Made by a program: the position numbers and the translations under genes. DNA of 59,077 bases from positions 1-59,077 of the forward strand of contig JAMCUI010000020.1 in assembly GCA_023379265.1 (NCBI GenBank), written 5' to 3'. Within the stretch, counting starts at the first letter, position 1; each line of letters begins with the position of its first letter. Under the pieces are notes generated by a model. It had not been told where the DNA came from and did not search any database. It worked only from the letters and a program-made list of their open reading frames with translations. Positions 48,582 to 59,077 of this stretch are shown in pieces. This DNA comes from Patescibacteria group bacterium (lineage in GTDB: Bacteria; Patescibacteriota; Microgenomatia; 2-02-FULL-39-11).

Positions 48582-50354
48582 ATGAGTAAAAATCAAAACG
48601 ACTATCTGAATAATCTCAGGCATACAGCTGCTCATCTTTTGGCAAAATCAGTAAAGGAGCTCTATCCTGGGGCTAAAAATGCCATCGGACCAGCGATTGA
48701 ACACGGATTTTACCAGGATTTCGATATGGGGAAATATAAAATATCAGATGAGGATTTACCAAAGATTGAGCAAAGAATGAGAGAGAATCTCCCGTCCTGG
48801 ACACATTTTGTCTTTAATGAAATCACTCTTTCTGAAGCCAGAAAATTATTTAAGGACAATCCTTATAAAGTAGAAATGGCCGAAGAATTCGCAAAAGGCG
48901 GTAAAAAACTTTTGACAAATGATCCCGGTAATTTTTTGGACTTATGTAAAATGGGCCACGTGGAAAATCCGTCTAAAGAACTCAATCATTTTAGACTTCT
49001 TAAAGTTGCTGGTGCATATTGGCGCGGAAATGAAAAAAATAAGATGCTAACAAGAATTTACGGAACGGCTTTCCCAACTAAGGAAGCACTCGATAAATAT
49101 GTCTGGCAACAAGAGGAAGCTTTGAAACGCGACCACAAAAAAATCGGTCATGAGCAGGAACTTTTTATAATTTCTGATGAAGTGGGGCCAGGTCTTCCTA
49201 TATTTTTGCCGCAAGGAGCAATTTTAAGACATATTATTGAAGAGTATATCAGAAGGGAAAAAGAGAAACGCAATTATCAGTTTGTCTGGACTCCCCATAT
49301 CGCAAGAAGCAAGCTATATATGAAATCAGGACATTGGAAAAAGTATGACGCCATGTTTAACCCTATGAAACTTGATGATGAGGAATATGTGCCAAAAGCC
49401 ATGAACTGTCCGCATCATTTTCAGGTCTATCTTTCCAAACCGAGAAGTTATAGAGACCTCCCGCTTCGAGTTGCGGAGAATGGAACTGTCTACAGATATG
49501 AAAAAAGCGGTGTGTTAAACGGCCTTTTCCGAGTCCGCTGTTTGACAATCGATGATACGCACACATTTGTACGTCACGACCAAATCGGAGAAGAATATGA
49601 AAATGTCCTTGTGCTTATTAAAGATATAATGTCTGATTTCGGCTTTAATAAATATAAAATGAGAGTCTCCCTCCGCGACGAAAAGCACAAAGGAAAATAT
49701 ATGGGTAATGAAAAACTTTGGAATAAAGCCGAGGACGCCATAAAAACAGTGGCCGAAAATAGCGGTATTGAGTGGTACGAAGGTCCAGGAGAAGCGGCTT
49801 TCTACGGTCCCAAGCTTGATCTGATGTTTGAGGATGCGTTGGGAAGAGAGTGGCAATGTGCCACTGCACAACTGGATTTTGTCCAACCGGAAAATTTTGA
49901 TATGCATTATACTGATGAAAATGGAAAACTTGTCCGGCCGGCGATACTGCATATAGCAATTCTAGGATCTGTGGAAAGATTTATGGGGATCATTATTGAA
50001 CAATTCGGCGGAAAATTCCCCGTCTGGCTTGCCCCTACCCAGCTGAAAATCATCCCAATTGCCGACAGGCACAAGGAATTTGCTGCAAAAATATATAAAA
50101 TTACGTCTCAAAATAGTATCAGGACAGAACTTGACGACAGAAATGAGACAATGCAGGCAAAGATACGCGATGCAACTTTACAAAAGGTACCTTATATGGG
50201 TATAATAGGGGATAAGGAAATGGAAAAATCCGGAATTGATAAGCCGGAAGGTATGTTTTTATCAGTAAGATCAAGAGACGGTAAAAATTTAGGCCAGATT
50301 GACGTGGCCCAACTAATAAATAAACTTAAAGTTGAGATTGAAAAGAAAATTTAA
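48582..50354 (+). CDS. thrS: threonine--tRNA ligase
   Basis: RHTAAHLLAKSVKELYPGAKNAIGPAIEHGFYQDF, MNCPHHFQVY, class II synthetase motifs. Confidence 0.97.
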   Translation: MSKNQNDYLNNLRHTAAHLLAKSVKELYPGAKNAIGPAIEHGFYQDFDMGKYKISDEDLPKIEQRMRENLPSWTHFVFNEITLSEARKLFKDNPYKVEMAEEFAKGGKKLLTNDPGNFLDLCKMGHVENPSKELNHFRLLKVAGAYWRGNEKNKMLTRIYGTAFPTKEALDKYVWQQEEALKRDHKKIGHEQELFIISDEVGPGLPIFLPQGAILRHIIEEYIRREKEKRNYQFVWTPHIARSKLYMKSGHWKKYDAMFNPMKLDDEEYVPKAMNCPHHFQVYLSKPRSYRDLPLRVAENGTVYRYEKSGVLNGLFRVRCLTIDDTHTFVRHDQIGEEYENVLVLIKDIMSDFGFNKYKMRVSLRDEKHKGKYMGNEKLWNKAEDAIKTVAENSGIEWYEGPGEAAFYGPKLDLMFEDALGREWQCATAQLDFVQPENFDMHYTDENGKLVRPAILHIAILGSVERFMGIIIEQFGGKFPVWLAPTQLKIIPIADRHKEFAAKIYKITSQNSIRTELDDRNETMQAKIRDATLQKVPYMGIIGDKEMEKSGIDKPEGMFLSVRSRDGKNLGQIDVAQLINKLKVEIEKKI

Positions 50355-50895
50355 ATATTATCGGTTAAACTATCAGATTACTGCACCCCAGTTGAGACTT
50401 CTTGATGAAACTGGTAAACAGATTGGGATTGTCGATAAGAACGAAGCTTTAAGGCGTGCTCAGGCGGAAGAAAAAGATTTGGTAGAAATAGCGCCAAACT
50501 CCAAACCTCCGGTGGTAAAGCTCATTGATTTCAAGAAGTTTAAGTATTTGGAGGCGAAAAAGGAAAGGGAGTCGAGGAAAAACATAAAACACGTAGGTGT
50601 GAAAGAAATCAGGCTTTCACCTTTTATGGGTGAACATGATTTAAATATCCGCTTGGAACAGGCACAAGGATTCCTAAAAGACGGAAACCAGCTTAAAATT
50701 TCATTACCCTTTAAGGGACGTGAGATTGCACATCAGGAATTCGGCAGGGAAATAATGGGGAAAGCGATACAACATTTGCAGGAAATATCAAAAGTGGTAA
50801 AAAGTCCATACATGGAGGGAAGGGTACTAGTAGCTATCCTGACACCGGCAAAAGCGGTAGGCGGGAATGATAAAAAAGAGAAGAGCACTGATTGA
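50332..50895 (+). CDS. infC: translation initiation factor IF-3
   Basis: YYRLNYQITAPQLRLLDETGKQIGIVDKNEALRRAQ, KEIRLSPFMGEHDLNIRLEQAQ. Confidence 0.96.
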   Translation: MRLKRKFKYYRLNYQITAPQLRLLDETGKQIGIVDKNEALRRAQAEEKDLVEIAPNSKPPVVKLIDFKKFKYLEAKKERESRKNIKHVGVKEIRLSPFMGEHDLNIRLEQAQGFLKDGNQLKISLPFKGREIAHQEFGREIMGKAIQHLQEISKVVKSPYMEGRVLVAILTPAKAVGGNDKKEKSTD

Positions 50896-50930: not shown

Positions 50931-51125
50931 ATGCCAAAACTCAAAACTAAAAAAACAATTGCGAAAAGATTTAAGATTACGTCTACCGGGAAGGTAATAA
51001 GAGGTCATTTGGCTGCTCGCCACCGTATGTTTCATAAGGACACTAGAAGAAGACGCCGGTTCTCAGAACCGATTGTAGTCGGAGAAAAAATGGCGAAAGC
51101 TATCAAATCAGTTGTTCAAAATTAA
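50931..51125 (+). CDS. rpmI: 50S ribosomal protein L35
   Basis: MPKLKTKKTIAKRFKITSTGKVIRG. Confidence 0.95.
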   Translation: MPKLKTKKTIAKRFKITSTGKVIRGHLAARHRMFHKDTRRRRRFSEPIVVGEKMAKAIKSVVQN

Positions 51126-51137
51126 GTAAGTAAATAT

Positions 51138-51485
51138 ATGAGAATAAAAAGAGGAATTGTCAGCCATAGGAAACATAAGAAACTTTTAGAATCCACATCA
51201 GGGTACAGGATGACCAAAAGGAGGCTGGTAAAAGTTGCCAAGGAAGCCTCCCTTCATGCAGGCCAATATGCCTATGCCGGCAGAAGGTTGAAAAAATCAG
51301 ACTTTCGGAAGCTTTGGATCACAAGAATATCTTCAGCTGTCAAGGAACAAGGAATATCATATAGCTCTTTCATCAATAAATTGAAGAAAGCCAATATTCA
51401 ACTTGACCGTAAAATACTAAGTGATATTCTCTTAAACGACGGTAAAACTTTCAAAGCAATAGTTGACAAAGCAAAATCAGTTTGA
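51138..51485 (+). CDS. rplT: 50S ribosomal protein L20
   Basis: MRIKRGIVSHRKHKKLLESTSGYRM, RRLKKSDFRKLWITRI. Confidence 0.96.
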   Translation: MRIKRGIVSHRKHKKLLESTSGYRMTKRRLVKVAKEASLHAGQYAYAGRRLKKSDFRKLWITRISSAVKEQGISYSSFINKLKKANIQLDRKILSDILLNDGKTFKAIVDKAKSV

Positions 51486-51491
51486 TATATT
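51463..51491 (+). promoter_or_regulatory. promoter TTGACA-N17-TATATT within rplT 3' end, driving the aromatic operon
   Basis: ttgacaaagcaaaatcagtttgatatatt; predicted TSS a few nt before ATG 51505. Confidence 0.8.
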
Positions 51492-51504
51492 CCGATATAA
51501 CAAC

Positions 51505-51558
51505 ATGAATTCACTCACACCAACCTGGTCAAAGTATTACTTTTACTTTACCTCCTAA
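51505..51558 (+). CDS. attenuator leader peptide MNSLTPTWSKYYFYFTS (aromatic-rich)
   Basis: 17-codon ORF with W-S-K-Y-Y-F-Y-F immediately before the attenuator. Confidence 0.85.
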   Translation: MNSLTPTWSKYYFYFTS

Positions 51559-51613
51559 AAAGGGGGTTGGTGTTTGTGTGAAATAAACGAAGTTTAATAA
51601 AATTTATATAACC

Positions 51614-51638
51614 AACCTCCTTAAAAAGGAGGTTTTTT
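51614..51638 (+). terminator. Rho-independent attenuator terminator
   Basis: AACCTCC-TTAAAAA-GGAGGTT-TTTT. Confidence 0.92.
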
Positions 51639-51645
51639 GTGTTTT

Positions 51646-52659
51646 ATGATCATTTTCTTAAAACCGCATCTCACACTCGACAAGGAAAAAGAATTCAGGA
51701 AGTTCCTTGTTGATCGCAATGTTAACGTAATTCCTGTAAGGCGCCGTGATCAAACTCTTCTGGTGGTAGCCGGACGATTTGGCGAATTGGCCAAAAGAGA
51801 GGTAGAAAATCACCACTACGTCGAAAAAATTCTTGAAACTGACAAACCATATAAACTTGCTGGAATGAGTTTCAATAAATCAGGCACCAAGATAAAACTA
51901 CCCAAAGGCACAGTAATCGGAAATAAACATATCGTAATTATGGCAGGACCGTGCTCGGTCGAAACAAAGGAACAAATCATGACAAGCGCCAAGGAAGTCA
52001 AAGATTCAGGTTCACAGATTTTGCGCGGAGGCGCCTTTAAGCCTCGTACCGGGCCTTATGACTTCCAGGGTCTGGGTAAAATAGGGCTTCATTTTCTGCG
52101 TGAAGCGGCAGACAGGATGAACTTATCAGTGATTACCGAAGTTTTGGATGTGCGCGATATCGAAATGATAGAAAAGTATACCGATATTTTCCAAGTCGGA
52201 ACACGCAATATGCAGAATTATCCGCTTCTTAAAGAATTAGGCCACTCTAGAAAACCGGTACTCCTCAAGCGCGGCATGTGGGCAACCTACAAGGAGCTTC
52301 TTTTGGCAGCTGAATATATTCTTTTGGGTGGAAACGAAAATGTCATACTTTGTGAAAGGGGTATCCGCACTCATGTGCCGGAAACCAGATTCACTCTTGA
52401 CCTGAATGCCGTTGCCTACCTGAAACATGAAACCCATCTGCCTGTAATTGTTGATCCCAGCCACGGTACTGGCCGGGCCAATATGGTTCGCGCAATGAGC
52501 AAGGCTGCAATAGCAGCAGGTGCTGACGGGTTACTGATAGAAGCACACACCAATCCGTTGAAATCTGTATCTGACGCCGACCAGGCTATTTCGATGCAGG
52601 AATTGAAAAAATTAGTTAAAGAGGTGAAAAGAGTGGCTGAGGCTGTAGACAGAAAATAG
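51646..52659 (+). CDS. aroF: 3-deoxy-7-phosphoheptulonate synthase (AroF/Thermotoga type with N-terminal ferredoxin-like domain)
   Basis: MAGPCSVETKEQI, LRGGAFKPRTGPYDFQGLG, ILCERGIRT, VIVDPSHGTGR. Confidence 0.95.
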   Translation: MIIFLKPHLTLDKEKEFRKFLVDRNVNVIPVRRRDQTLLVVAGRFGELAKREVENHHYVEKILETDKPYKLAGMSFNKSGTKIKLPKGTVIGNKHIVIMAGPCSVETKEQIMTSAKEVKDSGSQILRGGAFKPRTGPYDFQGLGKIGLHFLREAADRMNLSVITEVLDVRDIEMIEKYTDIFQVGTRNMQNYPLLKELGHSRKPVLLKRGMWATYKELLLAAEYILLGGNENVILCERGIRTHVPETRFTLDLNAVAYLKHETHLPVIVDPSHGTGRANMVRAMSKAAIAAGADGLLIEAHTNPLKSVSDADQAISMQELKKLVKEVKRVAEAVDRK

Positions 52660-52670
52660 ACTAAAAACAT

Positions 52671-53534
52671 ATGTCAAACCCTGACGGCTATAATTATCAA
52701 AAGATTGCATATCTGGGAATTCCCGGATCTTATTCATATGTCGCAGTACATAAATACATGAAAAATAAAAAAAACATGACAGGAGCAAAATCTATAAAGG
52801 AAGTTTTTGGACTAGTAGACTCCGGTAAATGCACAGCCGGAATAGTACCTTTGGAAAATACCACTACCGGAAGTATTTATGAATCATACGACGCTCTTAT
52901 TGATACGGGTCTGAGGATAACAGCGGAGATAATTCTATCTATCCACCACCATGTATTAGGGGTTGATAAAGGAATATCTGAAGATAACTTCAGGAAGGTA
53001 CAAAAGTGTCTGTCCCATCCCCAAGCAATCTCCCAGTGCGGAGATTTTCTGTCTGCTCACCCTTGGATAAAACCCGTCTTTACTACGGACACTGCGTCTG
53101 CCGCCAAAGAGGTGGCGCGGTGCGGAAAATCAGACATTATAGCCATAGCTGGAAAAGAAGCAGCCGATATTTACAACCTTACAATTCTTGGTAAAAATAT
53201 CGAGACTGTTTCACACAACTACACTAGGTTTATAAAAGTGCAGAAAAATATGAACAAGTCAGAAGGGAATAAAATCTCGCTGGCTTTCTCTGTCCGTCAC
53301 GTACCTGGTAGCCTTTCTAAGGTTTTAGACTCATATGCACATGCTGGTCTAAACCTAACCAAGATTGAATCAAGGCCGGTCTTTGGGCGCCCGTGGGAAT
53401 ATATTTTTTTTCTGGAATTTGATATCGGTAACAAGGGTGAATCTGTGGAAAATGTCCTTACCGAAATGAAGGAAAACACAAACTTTCTGACAGTTTTAGG
53501 AAGGTTTCCGAAGGGGAAAATATATGAGACTTAA
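52671..53534 (+). CDS. pheA: prephenate dehydratase
   Basis: YLGIPGSYSYVAVHKY, GIVPLENTTTGSI, ACT domain ESRPVFGRPWEYIFFLE. Confidence 0.93.
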   Translation: MSNPDGYNYQKIAYLGIPGSYSYVAVHKYMKNKKNMTGAKSIKEVFGLVDSGKCTAGIVPLENTTTGSIYESYDALIDTGLRITAEIILSIHHHVLGVDKGISEDNFRKVQKCLSHPQAISQCGDFLSAHPWIKPVFTTDTASAAKEVARCGKSDIIAIAGKEAADIYNLTILGKNIETVSHNYTRFIKVQKNMNKSEGNKISLAFSVRHVPGSLSKVLDSYAHAGLNLTKIESRPVFGRPWEYIFFLEFDIGNKGESVENVLTEMKENTNFLTVLGRFPKGKIYET

Positions 53535-53787
53535 TAAATTCAGGAAAGAAATAAACAAAATTGACGCCAAGATTCTGAAACTTTTGGCAAGACGTTTTCT
53601 GATTGCCAATAAAATCAAAGATATTAAGAAAAAAGAAAAATTGCCAATTCGGGACCAAAAAAGAGAAGAGGAAATTTTCCTTGAGATAAATATTCTTTCC
53701 AAGCAACTGAATCTCAATCCAGTTTTTACTAAGGAAATGTTTAAGAAAATTATTAAAGAGTCACGTAGACTTCAAAATGAAAAATAA
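53524..53787 (+). CDS. chorismate mutase (AroQ-class helical)
   Basis: RKEINKIDAKILKLLARRFLIANKIKDIKKKEKLPIRDQKREEEI. Confidence 0.92.
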   Translation: MRLNKFRKEINKIDAKILKLLARRFLIANKIKDIKKKEKLPIRDQKREEEIFLEINILSKQLNLNPVFTKEMFKKIIKESRRLQNEK

Positions 53788-54670
53788 TTTCCCCGAGAAA
53801 ATTGCCATAATCGGTGTAGGCCTTATAGGAGGATCCATCTCTTTGGGTCTAAAAAGACAATTAGGCTCTAAAATAACCGTTTACGGTATTTGCAGTTCGC
53901 CCAATAGGACTACGCAGGCACAAAAGTCCGGAATCATTGACCGGAAGATTGACGCAATCCATAAGTTACCCAAAGATATATCGCTTATTATCCTTTCGAC
54001 ACCGATAAACAAAATCGTAGACTTCATAGGAAAAATAAACCTAAGTCTTTTACCAAAAGACTGCCTGATTATCGATACGGGAAGCACGAAGGAAATCATA
54101 TGCAGTAAAGCAAAAAAGCGTTTTGCTGGACTTCAAAGGTTTATAGGAAACCATCCTATGGCGGGAAAGGAACAAAACGGATTTGAAAATGCCGATCCGT
54201 ACCTTTTCCGCAACAAACCATGGATTATTTGTCCGGATGAAAAAAGCCGGAAAGCGGATATTTTATTATGCCGGAAAATAGCACTCCATTTGGGAGCACA
54301 TACACTAATAATGAAACCTGAAACACATGACAGGGTTGCAGCTTTAGTTAGCCACTTGCCTTCTGCGGTAGCAAGTATACTGACAATAAGCATTACAGAC
54401 AATTCAGCCTGGAATAAAGAGACAAAAAATATCGCCTCAACTGGTTTTCGTGATACTTCAAGACTTGCCAGTTTAAGCCCGGAAATCAAATGTGACATAT
54501 TGTTTTCCAACAGAAAAAATGTGGTTAGTTCTCTAGAAAATTTTGGACGCCATATCAATATATTTACAATGCTTCTTAAAATGGGTAAAAGAAAACAACT
54601 GTCAGATTTGTTAGCAAATGCAAAATTAGAAAGGGACAGATGGTTATCTGACTATTTTGAAAAAATATGA
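53777..54670 (+). CDS. tyrA: prephenate dehydrogenase
   Basis: IAIIGVGLIGGSISLGLKR, DTGSTKEII, GNHPMAGKEQNGFENAD. Confidence 0.94.
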   Translation: MKNNFPEKIAIIGVGLIGGSISLGLKRQLGSKITVYGICSSPNRTTQAQKSGIIDRKIDAIHKLPKDISLIILSTPINKIVDFIGKINLSLLPKDCLIIDTGSTKEIICSKAKKRFAGLQRFIGNHPMAGKEQNGFENADPYLFRNKPWIICPDEKSRKADILLCRKIALHLGAHTLIMKPETHDRVAALVSHLPSAVASILTISITDNSAWNKETKNIASTGFRDTSRLASLSPEIKCDILFSNRKNVVSSLENFGRHINIFTMLLKMGKRKQLSDLLANAKLERDRWLSDYFEKI

Positions 54671-55782
54671 AAATATCAAGGAGGTTTTATCAAACCGTCC
54701 ATTCAGTAAAAAATGAAGAAACCACGCTTCTTATGGGCTCTGATATTCTGGGTAATTTGCATCAATTACCTGATATAAACAGTCCCGAATATTCGTCTTT
54801 CCTACTTTTTGCCGATAAAAATGTTTTTGATATTTACGGAAGAAAGTTAGTCTCGTCACTCAAAAAAACAGGGAAAAAAGTGTTTGTCTCTCTTTTCGAT
54901 CACGGCGAAAAGGATAAAAACCTAATATCCGTCACTAAAATGATAAAACCTTTTATATCAGCAGGTATAGACAGGAAGGCATGTCTCATCTCTTTCGGCG
55001 GCGGAGTGGCTTCTGACATTGGCGGGTTTATTGCCTCTATACTTTTGCGTGGGATTTCCTCAATAAATCTTCCCACTTCACTTTTGGCCCAGACCGATGC
55101 TGCAATAGGTGGAAAATCCGGTGTCGATTTATGGCTTCCTGACGGTACTATGGCAAAAAACATGATTGGTAGTTTCCGCCAGCCACGTGAAGTTATTACC
55201 GATATAGACACTCTTTCCACACTACCCCGGAAAGAATTATTAAACGGTTTAGGTGAAATGGCCAAATACGCTATCGGATGGGATATTCCCGCTAAAAATC
55301 AGCTTCAAAAATTGGCAAAAGGAAACTTTACTGATAAATCTTTGTTGATGGAGATAGTATTTAGTTGCCAGAAGTTGAAAGCAGAAATCATCCGAAAAGA
55401 CCCTCTTGATATTTTGGGAGAGCGGGAAAAACTGAATTTCGGTCATACTGTAGGCCATGGCGTAGAAGGCGCCAGCAAAGGTAGATTATCACACGGTGAA
55501 GCTGTATCAATCGGTATTGCGGCAGCTGCAAAAGTCAGTCTTCTTCTTGGGCTTTTAGATAATAAAGACTATCTCTTTTTAATAGACTTCCTGAAAAAAC
55601 TAAATCTTCCCGTGAGGATAAACGGTCTAGTAGAAGGAGATATACTTAAGCTTATTGGTCTTGATAAAAAGGCCGGCAGATTTGTACTTATTAAAAACCC
55701 ATTCAGGAAAAATTGTCTAGTTATTAAAGACTCCGTCGAAAAAAAATTACTAGAAAAAGCACTTGAGTATATTCTAATATAA
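54667..55782 (+). CDS. aroB: 3-dehydroquinate synthase
   Basis: ISFGGGVASDIGGFIAS, INLPTSLLAQTDAAIGGKSGVDL, LNFGHTVGHGVE. Confidence 0.96.
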   Translation: MKISRRFYQTVHSVKNEETTLLMGSDILGNLHQLPDINSPEYSSFLLFADKNVFDIYGRKLVSSLKKTGKKVFVSLFDHGEKDKNLISVTKMIKPFISAGIDRKACLISFGGGVASDIGGFIASILLRGISSINLPTSLLAQTDAAIGGKSGVDLWLPDGTMAKNMIGSFRQPREVITDIDTLSTLPRKELLNGLGEMAKYAIGWDIPAKNQLQKLAKGNFTDKSLLMEIVFSCQKLKAEIIRKDPLDILGEREKLNFGHTVGHGVEGASKGRLSHGEAVSIGIAAAAKVSLLLGLLDNKDYLFLIDFLKKLNLPVRINGLVEGDILKLIGLDKKAGRFVLIKNPFRKNCLVIKDSVEKKLLEKALEYILI

Positions 55783-55786
55783 CAAT

Positions 55787-56239
55787 ATGAAAATACTTAT
55801 CTTAAACGGACCGAATCTGAACCTGCTTGGAAAACGTGACCCGTCAAAATACGGCAATCAGACACTTGACAAAATAAATAATAAGCTGCGGGCACTAGCC
55901 GCACAAAAGGATGTATCTCTTGTTTTCTTCCAATCCAACTGCGAAGGTGCTTTGATTGATCTCATCCAGAATGATACTACTAGAAATGACATCTCTGGAG
56001 TAATCATAAACCCAGGAGCGCTTGTACGGTATGGCTATTCGCTTCGCCAGGCACTTATAGATTTGGGTAAACCGGTAATGGAAGTCCACATGTCCGACAT
56101 TGATAAAACGGGTATCAGTAAATCCGTAAATGTCCTTGAGGATATCAGGATTGGCCAGGTGAAAGGGATGAAGGAAGACAGCTATTTTGTAGGATTGCAA
56201 AAACTAATTGAGCATATCAGGTTAAAAGGACAAAAGTAA
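55787..56239 (+). CDS. aroQ: 3-dehydroquinate dehydratase type II
   Basis: ILNGPNLNLLGKRDPSKYG, FFQSNCEGALIDLI, INPGALVRYGYSLRQAL. Confidence 0.96.
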   Translation: MKILILNGPNLNLLGKRDPSKYGNQTLDKINNKLRALAAQKDVSLVFFQSNCEGALIDLIQNDTTRNDISGVIINPGALVRYGYSLRQALIDLGKPVMEVHMSDIDKTGISKSVNVLEDIRIGQVKGMKEDSYFVGLQKLIEHIRLKGQK

Positions 56240-56243
56240 AAAT

Positions 56244-57551
56244 ATGATACTAAAAGTTGAAAAAAGCAATAATCTGCAGGGAGAAATCAGTATGCCGGCG
56301 TCAAAAACCCATTCATTCAGAGCACTTGTTCTTGCATCTCTTGCCAAAGGAACATCAGTAATCAGGAATCCCAAAGTAGGAAATGATTGGGATGAGGCGC
56401 TCAGGACAATGACTATGTACGGTGCAAAAATTGAAAAAGAATCTGATAAAAATATATATCAAGTAAAAGGAGTGGCAGGACAACCTCAGACGCCTGAAAA
56501 TACCATAAATGTCGGCAATTCAGGAACAATGCTTTTTTTTGCAGCAGGAGTAGCAGGAGCATGTCCCGGCTGGTCAGTCATAACGGGAGATGAATCTATA
56601 AGGAAATTACGCAAAATCTCCAAAAATCTTTTTGCTCCATATAAAGAATTAGGTGTAAGCATTATCTCCACAAAGGATGATGGCATGGCGCCTCTTTTAA
56701 TAAAAGGCAGGGTAAACGGCGGGAAAGCACATATGGACGGGGTCGGCTGCCAACCAGTCTTTAGTATTTTAATCGCCTCAGCCCTTTCGCAAGAACCGGT
56801 GGAAATTTTTACCAAAAATCCTGGTGAATGTGCCTACATCGATTTACTTCTTTACTGGTTCGATAAAGTAGGACTGAAATACGAAAATGAGGACAATAAA
56901 CATATGCATTATATTTTCCCTGGAAATGAGTCTCCAAAACCGTTTGACGTAACCATCCCATTTGAATGGTCTTCGCCTCCCTATCCTCTGATTGCGGCTT
57001 TACTTACTCAAAATTCAGAAATCAGTATTAGAGGGATGGATCTAAGTGACCCTTATGGTGATAGGGAAGTGATCTATCTATTGAGGCAAATGGGAGCAGA
57101 TCTGACTATTTCTCCAAATGTTTTAACTGCAAGATCAAGTAACTTGCATGCCATCGAAACGGATATGAATAATCTTCCTGACCAAGTACCCTCAATAGCG
57201 GTAGCAGCTTGTTTTGCCCGGGGAAAAACAGTTATAAAAAATGCAAAAACAGCAAGATGGAAAGAATGCGACAGGATAACTGCCATCTGTAAGGAACTCA
57301 AAAAAATGGGCGCAAAAATTTATGAAAAAGAAGACGGATTAGTCATAAACCAGGATGGCAGTTGGAAATTAAAAGGTACTTCTGTTTCTGGCTACAAGGA
57401 CCACCGCATGGTACTATCCCTTGCTGTTGCCGGCCTGGCAGCTGGTGGAGCACCTACACTCATTAGTGATGCTGAAACTTTAGAAAAATCTTTTGAAACA
57501 TTCATTCCGGAAATGGAAACAGCCGGGGCAAGACTCAGTTTAATAAATTGA
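56244..57551 (+). CDS. aroA: 3-phosphoshikimate 1-carboxyvinyltransferase
   Basis: MPASKTHSFRALVLASLAKGTS, VGNSGTMLFF, YKDHRMVLSLAVAGL. Confidence 0.95.
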   Translation: MILKVEKSNNLQGEISMPASKTHSFRALVLASLAKGTSVIRNPKVGNDWDEALRTMTMYGAKIEKESDKNIYQVKGVAGQPQTPENTINVGNSGTMLFFAAGVAGACPGWSVITGDESIRKLRKISKNLFAPYKELGVSIISTKDDGMAPLLIKGRVNGGKAHMDGVGCQPVFSILIASALSQEPVEIFTKNPGECAYIDLLLYWFDKVGLKYENEDNKHMHYIFPGNESPKPFDVTIPFEWSSPPYPLIAALLTQNSEISIRGMDLSDPYGDREVIYLLRQMGADLTISPNVLTARSSNLHAIETDMNNLPDQVPSIAVAACFARGKTVIKNAKTARWKECDRITAICKELKKMGAKIYEKEDGLVINQDGSWKLKGTSVSGYKDHRMVLSLAVAGLAAGGAPTLISDAETLEKSFETFIPEMETAGARLSLIN

Positions 57552-57552
57552 T

Positions 57553-58089
57553 ATGTCAATAGTCCTTATCGGCATGAAGGCCAGTGGAAAAACTACTGTA
57601 GGAAAAATATTGGCCAAGAAGTTAAACATGCGTTTTGTCGACATGGATAATATTATTGAAAAAAAATACAAAATCAAATCAGGACAAAGTTTGTCGTTTA
57701 GGGAAATATTTAAAAAATACGGAGAGAAGTATTTTACTAATTTAGAGAGTGAATGTTTAAGTGAAGTATGCAAAGAAACAAACGGAAATATCATTCTGGC
57801 ATGCGGAGGAAGAACGCCGTTGACAAAAAGAAACCAAAATCTTTTGAAAAAAATTGGCCCAGCGGTTTATCTTGATGTAGATAAAAAGGAATTGCTTTCC
57901 AGGATATTGAAAAATGGATTGCCTGCTTTCCTAAAATATACCAATAATCCCGGAAAATCGCTTGATATGTTACTAAAAGTACGAAATCCTATCTATGAGG
58001 AAATTGCGGATATAAAAATTAGTTGCTCTGACAAAAAGCCGGACAAAATAGCGGGTTTGATAATAAAAAAATATTATGACCAGAATTGA
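57553..58089 (+). CDS. aroK: shikimate kinase
   Basis: IVLIGMKASGKTTVGKILAKKLNMRFVDMDNIIE, CGGRTPL. Confidence 0.93.
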   Translation: MSIVLIGMKASGKTTVGKILAKKLNMRFVDMDNIIEKKYKIKSGQSLSFREIFKKYGEKYFTNLESECLSEVCKETNGNIILACGGRTPLTKRNQNLLKKIGPAVYLDVDKKELLSRILKNGLPAFLKYTNNPGKSLDMLLKVRNPIYEEIADIKISCSDKKPDKIAGLIIKKYYDQN

Positions 58090-58891
58090 TGGCAATACCA
58101 AAATAGTCTGCTTCTTCGGTACGACTTACAAAACTAGTAAAATGTACGCTGTATATAACGCAGCCTTTGCTGCTTTGGATTTGAATTATATCTATATTCC
58201 GGTAGAAGTGACAGATCTTAAAGCAGCCCTAGAGGGAATTCGCACTCTGGGAATAAAAGCTGTTGGCGTAACTATACCTTATAAAGTTGAAACTGTTCAG
58301 TTTCTTGATGAATTGTCACCGGAAGCTAAACTTATCGGCGCCGTCAATACTGTGATAAATAGTGATGGCGTACTCACTGGATACAACACTGATGGACAGG
58401 GAGCTGTAAAAGCGTTAAAAGAGGTGACCACTCTTAAAAACAAAAATGCGCTATTAATAGGAGCTGGAGGCGCAGGAAGGGCAATTGTTTTTGCCCTTGT
58501 CCGCGAAGGAACCAATCTTACTGTTTTAAACAGGAATAAGGAAAAAGCAGCTAATCTGGCAAAAGCAGCCGGATGCCAATCAGGCGGACTTAATGATTTG
58601 GCAAAAACAATCAAAACAACCGATATTATTATCAATGCCACAACACTCGGCATGTTTCCCAATGTCAACAATTCAGCCATACCTAAAAAACTGTTGAGAC
58701 CTGGTATGATAATACAGGAACTTGTTTCCAATCCTGAAGAAACAAAATTGATAAAAGACGCAAAAGAATCAGGATGCAAAATAGTTACGGCAAAAAGTAT
58801 GCTCTTATGGCAAGCAGTTTTTAAGTTCAAACTTTATACCGGAGAGGAACCTCCAGTAAAAATTATGGAGGAAGCGATAAAAAAAGCTTAA
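58076..58891 (+). CDS. aroE: shikimate dehydrogenase
   Basis: VTIPYKVETVQFLDELSPEAKLIGAVNTV, YNTDGQGAVKAL, LIGAGGAGRAIVFAL. Confidence 0.95.
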   Translation: MTRIDGNTKIVCFFGTTYKTSKMYAVYNAAFAALDLNYIYIPVEVTDLKAALEGIRTLGIKAVGVTIPYKVETVQFLDELSPEAKLIGAVNTVINSDGVLTGYNTDGQGAVKALKEVTTLKNKNALLIGAGGAGRAIVFALVREGTNLTVLNRNKEKAANLAKAAGCQSGGLNDLAKTIKTTDIIINATTLGMFPNVNNSAIPKKLLRPGMIIQELVSNPEETKLIKDAKESGCKIVTAKSMLLWQAVFKFKLYTGEEPPVKIMEEAIKKA

Positions 58892-58964: not shown

Positions 58965-59003
58965 ACTATGCTTAGGTTTCTGACTGCAGGTGAATCACAC
59001 GGA
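58965..59003 (+). repeat. first exact copy of aroC 5' end (encodes MLRFLTAGESHGPLM*)
   Basis: 39 nt identical to 59039-59077. Confidence 0.95.
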
Positions 59004-59041: not shown

Positions 59042-59077
59042 ATGCTTAGGTTTCTGACTGCAGGTGAATCACACGGA
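59042..59077 (+). CDS. aroC: chorismate synthase, start only, truncated by window edge
   Basis: MLRFLTAGESHG is the AroC N-terminal signature. Confidence 0.85.
   Translation, partial: MLRFLTAGESHG

Follow-up and report, generated by a model that had tools for sequence, protein, structure and literature searches.

Bacteria of the Candidate Phyla Radiation (CPR) are mostly uncultured, have small genomes and usually encode few amino-acid pathways, and we know of almost nothing described about their gene regulation. The stretch of DNA analysed here in full (59,077 nt, hereafter the window) carries an operon for aromatic amino acid biosynthesis behind rplT, preceded by a short open reading frame rich in aromatic codons. 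Is this frame the leader of a transcription attenuator, as the initial annotation had proposed, and where else does such a switch occur? The genes upstream of the leader and those of the regulated operon are the following.

48582-50354, + strand: thrS, ORF named by sequence inspection
50332-50895, + strand: infC, ORF named by sequence inspection
50931-51125, + strand: rpmI, ORF named by sequence inspection
51138-51485, + strand: rplT, ORF named by sequence inspection and rplT homology
51646-52659, + strand: DAHP synthase (DAHPS), first gene of the regulated operon
52671-53534, + strand: prephenate dehydratase (pheA), regulated operon
53524-53787, + strand: chorismate mutase (CM), regulated operon
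53777-54670, + strand: prephenate dehydrogenase (tyrA), regulated operon
54667-55782, + strand: aroB, regulated operon
55787-56239, + strand: aroQ, regulated operon
56244-57551, + strand: aroA, regulated operon
57553-58089, + strand: aroK, regulated operon
58076-58891, + strand: aroE, regulated operon, which as a whole spans 51646-58891

The genes 3' of the leader make the amino acids that it would sense, as in this class of attenuator. The DAHP synthase has its nearest named relatives in Candidatus Gottesmanbacteria (Microgenomates group, Patescibacteria), at 73-76% identity. The operon previously described was recovered as DAHP synthase-pheA-CM-tyrA-aroBQAKE, but its last member, aroC, is unconfirmed, because only its first 12 codons (MLRFLTAGESHG) are present, in two copies, one (58968-59003) reaching a stop after 15 codons and the other (59042-59077) meeting the contig end. 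This repeat is either a contig-end assembly artefact or a real short duplication.

Direct re-reading showed every sequence string and coordinate of the initial annotation to be correct. The elements that would start transcription and translation of the leader are listed below, with their occurrence among the family homologues described further on.

51463-51491, + strand: sigma70-type promoter TTGACA-N17-TATATT with extended -10, canonical copy in 11/12 homologues
51505-51558, + strand: leader ORF MNSLTPTWSKYYFYFTS, kept in 12/12 homologues
51526-51549, + strand: sensor codons W8, Y11, Y12, F13, Y14 and F15, with a conserved YFYF core

The hexamers TTGACA (51463-51468) and TATATT (51486-51491) show an 11/12 consensus match together with the TG extension, and the promoter overlaps the last codons and the stop of rplT, whose TGA contributes to the TGATA motif. 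The leader had been described as near-leaderless, and its start codon indeed lies 13 nt past the -10 hexamer with no Shine-Dalgarno (SD) word. The six aromatic codons within eight residues were found again, and among the short ORFs (8-45 codons) on both strands of the 59-kb window, the leader frame is alone in holding six W/Y/F in eight residues. This aromatic leader arrangement is not due to chance.

Downstream of the promoter, the RNA contains the following regions.

51510-51525, + strand: region 1a (TTCACTCACACCAACC), pairing with the 3' part of region 2 (folding, swap test)
51550-51555, + strand: region 1b (ACCTCC), pairing with the 5' part of region 2, GGGGG at 51562-51566 (folding)
51562-51582, + strand: region 2 (GGGGGTTGGTGTTTGTGTGAA) (folding)
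51611-51620, + strand: region 3 (ACCAACCTCC), partner of region 2 in the antiterminator or of region 4 in the terminator
51614-51638, + strand: intrinsic terminator with a 9-bp stem (51614-51634), a 3-nt loop and a U6 tail, present in 28/28 leaders
51626-51632, + strand: SD of the DAHP synthase gene, AAGGAGG, inside terminator arm 4 and 13 nt before the ATG at 51646 (direct reading)

Subjected to the folding check suggested with the initial annotation, the RNA 51497-51650 gave -44.1 kcal/mol, well below its shuffles at -27.0 +/- 3.6 kcal/mol (z -4.75). With region 1b paired to GGGGG, the two halves of region 1 enclose an internal loop that contains the sensor codons.

From its sequence, we consider the locus to be very probably a trp/phe-type, ribosome-mediated transcription attenuator. 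The transcript would begin only a few bases 5' of the leader ATG, and a ribosome would start on the near-leaderless AUG. When charged tRNA-Trp, -Tyr or -Phe is scarce, this ribosome would stall on W/YYFYF, covering regions 1a and 1b; regions 2 and 3 would then pair, no terminator would form and RNA polymerase would enter DAHP synthase-pheA-CM-tyrA-aroBQAKE. When aromatics are plentiful, the ribosome would reach the stop codon and cover the start of region 2, so that regions 3 and 4 would pair and transcription would stop at the U run, short of DAHP synthase. For the cell, we infer leader translation, stalling and termination; such an attenuator would imply that RNA polymerase and a ribosome initiating on a near-leaderless message are closely coupled.

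To follow the leader in relatives, 15 genomes of the same Gottesmanbacteria-type family were compared, 12 of which encode a full-length homologous DAHP synthase. All 12 have a leader ORF of 15-31 codons with an aromatic run (for example MKLHLVNWFYFYFNPQAGSGFVV, MNLTSTKFFYFYFTS and MSIQTQWYYFYFTPSKKEAGLSGCK) and a terminator, without SD. The canonical TTGACA-17 promoter was found in 11/12, with a variant in L086; where it is canonical, 8-14 nt separate the -10 hexamer from the start codon, the transcription start itself being predicted. Tyr and Phe codons occur in 12/12 leaders and Trp codons in 9/12, and the presence of a leader Trp codon was not significantly associated with that of trpB (8/9 vs 1/3, p = 0.13). 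In the YFYF core (10 sequences), codon positions 1 and 2 are invariant and the third positions of the Tyr codons vary, a pattern as expected of a translated sensor, with translation itself predicted. Outside the aromatic run, the peptide differs among homologues in sequence and in length (15-31 residues), but the pairing of the RNA persists. Conservation of the attenuator suggests that aromatics are synthesised within this lineage and that their synthesis is adjusted to the supply of charged tRNA.

A class-wide pattern search and regional reads added 16 leaders of the same build, from other families and from G004, bringing the total to 28. This search requires a short promoter-to-aromatic-run distance and favours leaderless cases; the family set, collected through the protein, is not affected by this bias. 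An SD-like word is absent in 27/28 leaders, and the sole match (L089) falls in the -10 region. Directly 3' of the terminator U run, five leader loci (L086, L087, L090, L092 and L154) carry a palindromic stretch starting TTTTTTTATGCAGCT or similar, with a GCATAATCCGCC-type sequence, reminiscent of the insertion of a small repeat element at this spot; the exact 12-mer GCATAATCCGCC is of low copy, with 0-3 occurrences per family genome.

Covariation of the pairings was quantified by a swap test, chosen because MAFFT alignment of such short segments slipped register, in which the duplex energy of a region with its own partner was compared with that obtained with partners from other genomes (20000 permutations). 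The mean was -19.1 with own and -14.6 with swapped partners for 2:3 (z -4.1, 2/20000 permutations as good), -12.7 and -8.0 for 3:4 (z -5.1, 0/20000), and -13.2 and -10.5 for 1a:2 (z -3.6, 11/20000), while the control pairs 1a:3 and 1a:4 were not significant. The 2:3 antiterminator previously drawn covaries, as does the 3:4 terminator, which lies exactly where it had been placed and recurs in all 28 leaders. The 1:2 helix is also real and covarying, but its second half (1b) had been omitted, and it is the weakest and least conserved element. Relatives lacking the leader or compensatory changes, which the initial annotation had named as evidence against its own reading, were not encountered among the 12 homologues: 12/12 have the leader and the pairings covary.

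The predicted exchange of structures was followed by ribosome-walk folding, in which a ribosome footprint was shifted codon by codon along the RNA. Its full-length equilibrium version is not a validated predictor, because it yields no switch for the positive controls, E. coli trpL and pheM; in this version, the antiterminator at our locus reached 0.97-0.98 with an aromatic codon in the A site and the terminator 0.95 at the stop codon, and the exchange point lay at the aromatic run in 11/12 homologues. At the first aromatic codon, the mean Panti of the 28 leaders was 0.65 with real spacers vs 0.03 with shuffled spacers, and three leaders (L155, L156 and L164) showed no switch at this codon in full-length folding. 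Given the failure on trpL and pheM, more weight was placed on a co-transcriptional version with the same positive controls, in which the RNA ends before region 4. With the ribosome stalled on aromatic codons, Panti then exceeded 0.5 in 28/28 leaders, and likewise in trpL and pheM. At the stop codon, it was below 0.2 in 21/28 and not in the other 7, this locus giving 0.31. Ribosome-free RNA folded before region 4 favoured the antiterminator in 19/28 leaders, and the 1:2 protector is therefore not dominant everywhere: it is strong and covarying at this locus and not dominant in these 19 homologues. Together, the presence of the leader in 12/12 genomes, the better fit of cognate pairings and the exchange predicted at the aromatic run support the attenuation reading.

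Taken alone, the exchange between terminator and antiterminator would fit equally well a terminator that senses a tRNA, a metabolite or a protein (T-box, riboswitch or TRAP-like) beside an incidental ORF. We regard such a sensor as highly improbable: no Rfam riboswitch or T-box matched at the gathering threshold, 12/12 homologues keep the aromatic codons at the protein level, and the switch point falls on these codons in 11/12.

The position of the DAHPS SD inside arm 4 bears on a second possibility. Antitermination would also free this SD, and translation may therefore be controlled too in this genome, as an effect secondary to transcription attenuation. A purely translational, erm-type attenuator, in which the 3:4 hairpin would mainly hide the SD and stalling free it, with no termination, would also account for the short U run and the ATG close behind it here, and for the ATG located 5-6 nt after the hairpin in L084, L085, L088 and L091. 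We judge it improbable, as a U-rich tail follows the hairpin in 28/28 leaders and several pheST relatives have a separate SD further downstream; moreover, the hairpin lies 87-231 nt before the DAHPS start in 6/12 family homologues and is therefore not just a lock on the SD. Transcription attenuation is preferred because the terminator with its U run is the element common to the leaders.

The leader adjoins the 3' end of rplT in 12/12 family members, at 14-20 nt in 11 of them and at 260 nt in L086, and it also stands behind rplT in L150-L154, L158, L165, L167 and L173. The genes that follow differ: pheST in L151, L152, L155, L158, L165, L167 and L173 (the last found upstream of pheS), DAHP synthases of three kinds in L150 (weak), L154 and L161, and prephenate dehydrogenase/dehydratase in L153 and L156. 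G004 belongs to the family but lacks this DAHP synthase; there, pheST follows the leader behind rplT. Since related Microgenomates leaders precede pheST or other aromatic genes, the cargo appears to have changed behind a constant switch, most simply by exchange or insertion of the controlled genes while the switch kept its place after rplT.

This distribution also bears on whether the short ORF simply encodes a functional small peptide, without attenuation, and the terminator belongs to rplT. With the leader here only 19 nt behind rplT, the terminator might serve to stop transcripts of the upstream operon. Yet rplT and the ORF are separated by a strong promoter, the peptide varies outside the aromatic run while the base pairing stays, and the same leader precedes different aromatic genes and is also found away from rplT, so that we give this explanation hardly any credence.

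The search for related leaders was extended to other loci. At 18 trpB or trpB-like loci of the family and its neighbours, with flanks to ~1.5 kb, no leaderless trp-operon leader with a terminator was found. Among 60 pheS upstream regions across the phylum, there was one match (G065, same class) and one antisense control match; a pheST leader outside Microgenomates is therefore absent or unlike this one. The genome's own pheST is on a different contig, where its pheS (G000:C16:2708-3640, L230) stands behind a gene with an aminotransferase-like end and has no aromatic leader; an aminotransferase-like gene is also found near the leader or pheS in L150 and L151. In Microgenomates, the interval between leader and pheS is occupied by small ORFs of 84-138 aa (L151:496-1245, L152:451-702, L158:903-1217 and L167:3393-3737), which match no Pfam family and may form a new protein family linked to pheST. 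In L160, L161 and L162 (Microgenomates f3), the genes behind the aromatic leader include one for an AlaX-type alanyl-tRNA editing protein; the first of these genes in L161 encodes a type I aroFGH DAHP synthase.

The address of the leader is that of E. coli pheM, which lies directly behind thrS-infC-rpmI-rplT in the order pheM-pheS-pheT. PheM is likewise a short leader whose aromatic run ends in FYF, with a terminator and a stall-dependent 2:3 pairing in the same computation. In contrast to pheM, the leader described here has no SD, senses Tyr and usually Trp besides Phe, and in the family drives an aromatic biosynthetic operon, pheST following only in relatives (e.g. L165, L158, L167 and L173). 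We tentatively entertain, as a possibility that we doubt more than we favour, that the rplT-adjacent attenuator is old and position-conserved, sharing common descent with the gammaproteobacterial pheM-pheST, with its pheST cargo swapped for aromatic operons and an SD-free, leaderless translation coupled to transcription. The common address with pheM and the exchange of cargo make the history of the attenuator traceable.

The E. coli trp (RF00513) and phe (RF01859) leaders also share the leader peptide, the 1:2/2:3/3:4 set and the terminator before the first gene; they differ in that here there is no SD, three amino acids are sensed jointly and another operon follows. The best Rfam matches of the locus were these two, Trp_leader RF00513 at 24.3 bits and Phe_leader RF01859 at 22.9, both below their gathering thresholds of 41 and 55. 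Canestrari et al. are said to have described in 2020 leaderless polycysteine attenuator ORFs of mycobacteria that control the operon behind; these are likewise leaderless short ORFs with a run of the sensed residue, which is cysteine there, and we know of no classical intrinsic-terminator 1:2/2:3/3:4 set in them.

Leaders before DAHP synthase are not confined to this lineage. At the DAHPS loci of other organisms, an aromatic-rich short ORF with a terminator was found within 600 nt upstream in 33/76, against 1/76 in the antisense control, so that such leaders are not CPR-specific and represent a wider phenomenon. In Acholeplasma, attenuation has been proposed for the aroF motif uORFC-13-1, which combines a ribosome-binding site, a uORF with at least one Phe codon and an adjacent intrinsic terminator, and is confined to Acholeplasma and environmental sequences (PMC8632094). 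Compared by description, it resembles our leader in having a uORF and a terminator before DAHP synthase and differs in its ribosome-binding site (PMC8632094). The novelty claimed in the initial annotation therefore holds for the lineage and the arrangement and not for the mechanism, given these loci in other phyla and the Acholeplasma motif; an open-access literature search (subscription papers and preprints lying outside its scope) returned no paper on leader-peptide attenuation in CPR/Patescibacteria. A wider aromatic attenuation of DAHP synthase makes the mechanism less novel and its general interest greater.

The non-family loci include Clostridium, Sporomusa and Treponema (e.g. L008, L012, L019, L025, L033, L041, L060 and L065), and no Rfam leader match was obtained in the 14 of these DAHPS leader loci that were scanned. 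In the Clostridium examples that were read, the leader has an SD, while L007 and some Treponema loci start near a promoter-like -10. The Clostridium leader peptides share a longer conserved motif, FWGF.FSAGYLFCKK.
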